Source: a virus. Taken from it: DNA of 28,983 nt. A program made the translations under genes and the position numbers. Under the pieces are notes generated by a model. The model searched no databases, was not told the origin of the DNA, and worked only from the letters and a program-made list of their open reading frames with translations. The stretch is from IMG/VR virus record IMGVR_UViG_3300028548_000508, positions 1 through 28,983 of that record. One strand, given 5' to 3'. Numbering within the stretch: position 1 is the stretch's first letter; the number at the start of each line of letters is the position of its first letter. This document shows, piece by piece, positions 1,278-25,818 of the stretch.

Positions 1278-1346
1278 CTAGTTAAGGTCTTGAGCTGCTA
1301 CAGCGAGTAGCGAAGTTACTACGAAGATGATCATGTAGATAATCAC
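1278..1346 (-). CDS. 22-residue hydrophobic micropeptide with strong RBS
   Basis: A short reading frame begins with GTG and encodes MIIYMIIFVVTSLLAVAAQD followed by LN and TAG. Nearly the whole peptide is one hydrophobic membrane-type helix. An AAGGGG Shine-Dalgarno lies 6 nt before the GTG, and a sigma70-like promoter sits just upstream, so it would be the first cistron of the terminase transcript. I do not recognise it. It could be a membrane micropeptide (holin or antiholin-like, host-targeting) or a leader peptide. Reality as a gene rests on the RBS, the promoter position and the clean hydrophobic composition. Confidence 0.55.
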   Translation of the reverse strand: MIIYMIIFVVTSLLAVAAQDLN

Positions 1347-1510: not shown

Positions 1511-1629
1511 TAGTCCGTTTCAGCTCCCCAGTGGACTAGTCTGGGTCAAAAGGTACAAAGTGACCTTGGCCTAATCCGTTGCAGCACACCAGTGGATAAG
1601 GCTGGCAGGAGGAAGGCTTTCGCCCTTGG
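1511..1629. repeat. Tandem ~60-bp imperfect repeat with hairpins, non-coding
   Basis: Two copies of a unit about 60 bp long follow each other between the last early gene and the operator region. Plus-strand hairpin 1 pairs TAGTCC (1511-1516) with GGACTA (1533-1538); hairpin 2 pairs TAATCC (1572-1577) with GGATAA (1594-1599), offset 61 bp. The 16-nt loops are similar, GTTTCAGCTCCCCAGT against GTTGCAGCACACCAGT. A G-C pair in one stem is A-T in the other, so pairing is kept. Each unit also carries CTGG and CCTTGG boxes at matching offsets (CCTTGG at 1564 and 1624). No coding frame spans it. It may be a structured RNA, a terminator array, or part of a packaging site. Confidence 0.65.
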
Positions 1630-9575: not shown

Positions 9576-9617
9576 ATCTTGCCTGATGTTTACCCTAATG
9601 TAAACCTTTTAGTTTAC
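9576..9617 (-). promoter_or_regulatory. Early control region: three half-sites at 12-bp spacing, weak promoter
   Basis: GTTTAC (9588), GTAAAC (9600) and GTTTAC (9612) are spaced exactly 12 bp apart with alternating orientation, so they form two overlapping inverted repeats with 6-bp spacers. On the minus strand TTTACA (9604-9599) could be a -35 with CAAGAT (9581-9576) as a weak -10 at 17 nt. Location between the late terminator and the first early gene fits an operator/promoter. The half-sites are clear; the promoter is tentative. Confidence 0.5.
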
Positions 9618-9634
9618 TTTATTTAGCAAAAGGC

Positions 9635-9670
9635 AAAAAAAAGCCCTGCAATAAATTAATAAGCAGGGCT
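9635..9670 (-). terminator. Strong intrinsic terminator of the late unit
   Basis: On the minus strand AGCCCTGC pairs with GCAGGGCT (8 bp, 13-nt AT-rich loop) followed by a run of T residues. It lies about 80 nt past the endolysin stop and ends the structural/lysis transcript before the early genes. The region 9671-9747 between stop and terminator shows no gene. Confidence 0.88.
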
Positions 9671-9747
9671 AAAAGGGAATAACAAGAGACAAGTAAAAAA
9701 GTTTACGCCACATGGCGCACCAAAAGTATAACTAATTTATCTGGCCA

Positions 9748-25772: not shown

Positions 25773-25798
25773 TAAAAAATGCCCCCCCGAAGGAGGGC
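25773..25798 (-). terminator. Terminator/attenuator after the major capsid gene
   Basis: On the minus strand GCCCTCC pairs with GGGGGGC (one T-G wobble) around a TTCG loop, followed by ATTTTTT. It lies between the capsid gene and the connector gene inside the late unit, so it probably reduces rather than stops transcription, keeping capsid protein in excess. Confidence 0.8.
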
Positions 25799-25818
25799 AG
25801 ATTATTAGTCTTACTATC

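Follow-up and report, generated by a model that had tools for sequence, protein, structure and literature searches.

Does the non-coding tandem repeat between the early genes and the terminase genes of an uncultured virus encode a structure under selection and, if so, what is that structure for? The window analysed here is the whole 28,983-nucleotide stretch of IMG/VR record IMGVR_UViG_3300028548_000508 (positions 1–28,983). The original prediction, made from the letters of the window, had singled out two ~60-bp units with shared boxes at equal offsets, hairpins with 16-nt loops and one compensatory base change, and had offered an RNA element, a tandem terminator or part of a cos/pac site as explanations. 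The units are present as described. On the plus strand, TAGTCC (1511–1516) and GGACTA (1533–1538) enclose a 16-nt loop, as do TAATCC (1572–1577) and GGATAA (1594–1599); the shared boxes of the two hairpins are offset by 61 nt, and one pair changes from G-C to A-T while staying paired.

Taken by itself, the window would make a weak case for a structured repeat. Repeat finding did not list the pair of units, and the folding energy of the window sequence did not differ from that of shuffles (z: minus strand, 0.27; plus strand, −0.39). Minimum-energy folding misses the element because a pseudoknot and alternative hairpins mislead it. It is the homologues that decide the matter.

Homologues and predicted fold of the repeat

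The homologue set comprised 119 matches in 88 sources, and all relatives were uncultured IMG/VR contigs. The shared-box pattern matched 13 viral stretches, and relatives of the upstream gene together with two further patterns added more. Three pattern matches in genome contigs were discarded: L146 and L148 look like terminators, and in L147 the remainder of the fold is missing. A covariance model of the nested stems, CM R1, was built from units like the first one in the window (U1) only, yet it detected the second window unit, U2 (Table 1). In other loci, the second units found with R1 were always in tandem and on the 5′ side of U1.

Judged from these homologues, the tandem repeat at 1510–1632 is a structured RNA of the minus (coding) strand, with two adjoining units. 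Each ~60-nt unit is predicted to form a three-way junction (stems P0, P1 and S1), to which pairing of the S1 loop with the 3′ tail adds a pseudoknot, S2. The hairpin reading of the original prediction held in part: its stems exist, but the plus-strand hairpin corresponds to S2, one of four stems, the RNA lies on the minus strand, and the second plus-strand stem carries one mismatch (T·T on the minus strand).

Table 1 Coordinates of the element, its predicted stems and neighbouring features in the window.
Feature	Position	Strand	Evidence or comment
U1, 3′ unit of the RNA, strongly conserved copy	1510–1572	−	CM R1 84.6 bits; CM R2 69.2 bits
U2, 5′ unit of the RNA, tandem copy that evolves faster	1574–1632	−	CM R1 20.0 bits, E = 0.0018 (model E-values are rough); CM R2 38.9 bits
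U1 stem P0, 5′ strand, GGCC	1568–1571	−	Pairs with 1522–1526; covaries
U1 stem P0, 3′ strand, GAGCU, one bulged A	1522–1526	−	Pairs with 1568–1571
U1 hairpin P1, 5′ strand, AAGGU	1563–1567	−	Pairs with 1550–1554; double-sided changes in 5/5 pairs
U1 hairpin P1, 3′ strand, ACCUU	1550–1554	−	Pairs with 1563–1567
U1 stem S1, 5′ strand, CCCAG	1541–1545	−	Pairs with 1527–1531; 10 haplotypes
U1 stem S1, 3′ strand, CUGGG	1527–1531	−	Pairs with 1541–1545
U1 pseudoknot S2, 5′ strand, UAGUCC, within S1 loop	1533–1538	−	Pairs with 1511–1516
U1 pseudoknot S2, 3′ strand, GGACUA	1511–1516	−	Own loop–tail pairing test
U2 stem S1, 5′ strand, GCCAG	1602–1606	−	CM alignments
U2 stem S1, 3′ strand, CUGGU	1588–1592	−	CM alignments
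U2 stem P0, 3′ strand	1583–1587	−	CM alignments
U2 pseudoknot S2, 5′ strand, UUAUCC	1594–1599	−	CM alignments
U2 pseudoknot S2, 3′ strand, GGAUUA	1572–1577	−	Pairs with 1594–1599, one U·U mismatch
Small membrane protein gene, 64 aa, upstream of element	1630–1824	−	Homologue there in most relatives, unrelated genes in others
Promoter-like site TTCAAA-17-TATAAT, conserved, not part of the RNA	1377–1405	−	10/12 consensus matches; homologous in relatives
Second promoter-like site TTTACA-17-CACAAT, before late genes	1249–1277	−	Conserved in relatives
Terminase small subunit gene, first packaging gene downstream	593–961	−	PHROG 309, E = 2.6e-24

Across 102 distinct homologous units, 96.9% of nested-pair cells were paired, 13 of the 14 nested pairs had changes on both sides, and covariation was 0.540, compared with 0.213 in shuffled (0/500) and at most 0.109 in slid controls; the alignment was fitted to the structure by a model that leaves out S2, so these counts lean towards that structure. 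The 36 distinct U1-type units gave 97.1% paired cells and a covariation of 0.207 (0.112 shuffled, ≤0.085 slid). Mean pairwise identity among distinct units was 0.62. A covariance search over related phages had been put forward as a check on the original prediction; the covariation that it revealed, far above both kinds of control, strongly supports selection on structure and an RNA element.

For S2, the loop of each unit was paired with its own tail and with the tails of units carrying another loop. At least five Watson–Crick pairs formed with the own tail in 99 of 106 distinct units, and cross-pairing was 22%. The S1 variants were all paired, with CCCAG/CUGGG, GCCAG/CUGGU, GCAGG/CCUGU, GCUGG/CCAGU and CUCAG/CUGAG among the haplotypes, and P0 occurred in the compensatory forms GGCC/GAGCC, GACC/GGUC, GAUC/GAUC, GGUC/GACC and GACU/AGUC. 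All four predicted stems, P0, P1, S1 and S2, are backed by covariation. Outside the pairs, U1-type units share the conserved unpaired bases UUUGA, and the conserved bases of the family alignment are T50, C55, A56, A71 and C72, some of them within S2. The conserved unpaired bases suggest that a partner recognizes the RNA or that its tertiary fold is a demanding one.

Read on the minus strand, the pairs included 124 G-U cells versus 20 A-C cells, indicating that the selected form is the minus-strand RNA. Since G-U pairs turn into A-C mismatches on the other strand, this reliance points to selection on single-stranded RNA and not on duplex DNA, which argues against the suggested part of a cos/pac site. 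The tandem terminator fared no better. There is no hairpin with a U-tract at the window element and no U-tract after S2 in relatives, ruling out an intrinsic terminator; true terminators are separate from the element and lie further downstream; 22 of 85 loci have one within 400 nt on the same strand.

Against Rfam 15, the window gave no match at gathering score and none at E ≤ 5, and ten relatives gave none at gathering score; the region of L198 gave four weak, chance-like matches, all on the strand opposite to the element. Text searches of the literature, with incomplete coverage, found no description of this RNA. Comparison of the homologues showed the predicted tandem pseudoknot RNA to be a structured RNA family with one or two tandem copies; it is new in the sense that neither Rfam 15 nor the papers found contain it.

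Distribution and gene context

To avoid selection by the element's own sequence, we assembled an unbiased sample of loci fetched by their large terminase. With R1, the element was detected in 46 of 73 searched loci, and a second model, R2, added 7 loci whose DNA reaches back to the nin region. The remaining loci mostly have too little upstream DNA to show whether it is there; L182, which has the same layout as L177, was outside the R2 search. The element was present in every searched contig spanning the nin-to-terminase region, and contigs of 26–37 kb had one element site each (15/15), with one or two units. BLAST searches of named phages gave no match for the window element or for the unit of L162, and only 20-nt chance matches for the unit of L198. 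The element was not found in plasmids, nor in the three searched among the nearest named phages by capsid (Pelagibacter HTVC111P and HTVC026P, and Phage DSL-LC06; capsid identity to the nearest named phages is 44–48%). The group of viruses carrying the RNA is uncultured and widespread, and infects bacteria.

Gene order is constant and on one strand: NinB, NinG, small genes, the element, gene o958, small terminase and large terminase. Downstream of the element, optional genes may be inserted. The element always sits at the early/late boundary, with the nin region on one side and late promoters and terminase on the other; the original prediction had placed it correctly, after the early unit and before the terminase genes, and this place is conserved.

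On the 5′ side, the position is fixed by a stop codon. In the window, the UAG of the 64-aa gene (1630–1632) is the first triplet of U2, and in 73 of 74 loci with a called ORF the distance from the first base of the element to the stop of the longest upstream ORF is −22 to +4 nt, mostly −3 to +4. The genes directly upstream are of at least three unrelated kinds, and the upstream gene was therefore rejected as the element's specific target. In L151, L162 and L163, the gene before the element encodes, in place of the small membrane protein, a protein predicted to be secreted and rich in D(A/S)WGNTR-type repeats. A stimulator of stop-codon readthrough was rejected because in-frame extensions vary from 1 to 77 codons across loci, as was a free-standing small RNA gene with a promoter directly before the element: a possible site was seen by eye in L060 only and is not conserved.

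On the 3′ side, the element is followed directly by the conserved promoter-like region, by an intrinsic terminator or by an extra gene. A 5′ side fixed by the stop codon together with a variable 3′ side implies a 3′-UTR or intercistronic element and not the leader of a particular gene. This arrangement across loci showed the predicted RNA to be the untranslated end of the early operon transcript, on the minus strand.

Promoter-like sites with at least 9 of 12 consensus matches followed the element in 76 of 84 loci, compared with 55% for shuffles and 40 of 77 upstream controls, a tally that uses a simple consensus and a crude shuffle control. In most relatives, a conserved tiny ORF of ~18–24 codons with a membrane-like product (MIIYMI...; window ~1278–1346, minus strand) separates the two late promoter-like sites. 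The stretch from the element to the first promoter-like site contains, at 1437–1497, two operator-like repeats (CTGTAGT.ACCATTTT), which are shared by close relatives of the window only. At ~1217–1255 on the minus strand, a CCCC...GGGG hairpin surrounds the ribosome-binding site in the leader of the gene before the small terminase; it has a recurring ACTAC loop, occurs also in many relatives and is a possible second regulatory RNA.

Two further sites lie well away from the element. The major capsid gene is followed at once by a terminator-like hairpin (window 25780–25799, minus strand), with the next late gene beyond it. The hairpin is kept in 11 of 11 relatives (L227–L237), several of which have short T runs only, and may act as a partial terminator that raises the yield of capsid relative to downstream products. 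At ~9580–9680 (minus strand), the end of the late operon (AGCCCTGC...GCAGGGCTTTTTTTT) is followed by GTTTAC/GTAAAC repeats that look like an early promoter/operator region.

Candidate functions

Its presence in every checkable relative suggests that the element serves an important step between early and late gene expression. It starts at the stop of the last gene, is independent of both neighbours and is followed by late promoter-like sites, from which we infer that it acts on the early mRNA itself. As its most likely function we tentatively propose that of a structural barrier, acting in cis, where the early mRNA ends. Ribosomes at the upstream stop codon would cover the 5′ strands of P0 and P1; once they have gone, each unit would fold into a tight knot that halts exoribonucleases. 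The early mRNA would thus gain a defined, protected end, both at the roughly one in four loci with an intrinsic terminator and at the others, where Rho or run-through would bring transcription to its end, in a manner resembling viral exonuclease-resistant RNAs of the same strand topology.

We place the barrier first because of this xrRNA-like strand topology and because Rho-terminated transcripts of Escherichia coli are trimmed by 3′–5′ exonucleases (PMC7815308). Several points speak against a barrier. The element does not always come last in the mRNA, since some lineages have another gene directly after it (L004, L013, L024 and L033), and 3′–5′ enzymes could be stopped by a simple hairpin. 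Moreover, xrRNAs block a 5′–3′ enzyme, Xrn1. Wider in reach, and in our judgement possible but doubtful, is the proposition that phages independently evolved a tandem, exonuclease-resistant RNA of xrRNA topology, and that they use it (or use the element as an RNA antiterminator of new shape) instead of a protein for the passage from early to late expression.

Of the two serious rivals of the barrier, the better placed is a put-like cis RNA antiterminator, in which the nascent RNA would bind RNA polymerase and let it read through terminators into the late genes, replacing Q; we hold it to be rather unlikely. The element does occupy the Q/pR′ place of lambdoid phages, after NinB and NinG and before terminase, and no Q family member was found among the neighbouring proteins searched. 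The intrinsic terminators downstream of the element, the hairpin after the capsid gene in the late operon (window and all 11 relatives) and the existence of phage RNA antiterminators of similar size (PMC9378689) would suit such a role, but most loci have no terminator within 400 nt, and late transcripts started at the promoter-like sites after the element would not contain it.

The other serious rival, a trans-acting RNA processed from the early mRNA and serving as a decoy or inhibitor of a host factor (a nuclease, toxin or defence protein) or resembling a type III antitoxin, strikes us as unlikely. Tandem pseudoknots, conserved unpaired bases and independence from the flanking genes would suit a self-contained RNA, and ToxI is a precedent for repeated pseudoknots (PMC5772629); yet the place of the element is fixed, in every case at the early/late boundary and next to a stop codon, and it has neither a coupled toxin gene nor a conserved promoter of its own.

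The conserved unpaired bases lie within a pseudoknotted junction, as might be expected of a regulatory aptamer that binds a metabolite or a phage or host protein and switches neighbouring genes. Tandem aptamers are known among riboswitches. We nevertheless judge this improbable: what follows the element is a ribosome-binding site ~15 nt away, a terminator or a promoter, with no constant expression platform, and we saw neither a conserved alternative pairing nor a match to an Rfam riboswitch. A packaging element, either an RNA akin to pRNA or a cos/pac site in the DNA by the terminase genes, is very improbable despite the nearby terminase and the three-way junction of phi29 pRNA, given that the small terminase gene is >2 kb away in many relatives, that the one-strand G-U pairs speak against a duplex-DNA site as the selected form and that pRNA is, to our knowledge, known only from phi29-like phages.

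Whichever reading applies, the element marks the early-to-late boundary in viruses in which the neighbouring genes searched gave no Q, and so provides a handle on the programme switch. The fold is compact, covaries in four stems and is absent from Rfam, and both the barrier and the antiterminator could be tested with an RNA of ~130 nt.

Comparison with known RNAs

The xrRNA-like topology and phage RNAs at comparable positions are of kinds that are already known. With intrinsic terminators, the element shares G+C-rich stems after a stop codon, but it differs in having a pseudoknot and conserved loops. It sits where the lambda Q/qut/pR′ system does, with the nin region on one side and the late genes on the other; it is, however, an RNA element and not a protein, and a role in antitermination is a proposal.

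HK022 put RNA is likewise an untranslated phage RNA of the early transcript, with ~70 nt per element. It lies near the early promoters, whereas the element described here is at the end of the early operon, before late promoter-like sites. Its two stem-loops, for which the paper mentions no pseudoknot (PMC9378689), also contrast with a pseudoknotted three-way junction and count against a put-like mechanism. If the element does act on RNA polymerase, it would represent a second architecture of RNA-only antitermination.

ToxI resembles the element in consisting of tandem RNA pseudoknots, but its 36-nt units, in 5.5 repeats, are followed by a terminator and the toxin gene toxN (PMC5772629). Membership of this system, or of type III toxin–antitoxin systems, was ruled out by units of ~60 nt in one or two copies, the absence of a toxin gene and the variable downstream gene.

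The closest likeness in strand order is to flaviviral xrRNAs, which occur in tandem copies in flaviviruses. These RNAs combine a three-way junction with PK2, a pairing of loop and 3′ tail (PMC7603331), and the predicted fold follows the same order of P0, hairpin P1 and S1 with its loop pairing 3′ of P0, at a similar size (~60–70 nt) and likewise after an open reading frame. It differs in that known xrRNA models did not match it (no Rfam match at E ≤ 5), in its setting in double-stranded DNA phages and in that no conserved candidate pair was noted for PK1, the second, small pseudoknot that in xrRNAs links the 5′ end with the junction region. If the element does block nucleases, it would be the bacterial-virus counterpart of xrRNAs, reached by convergent evolution.
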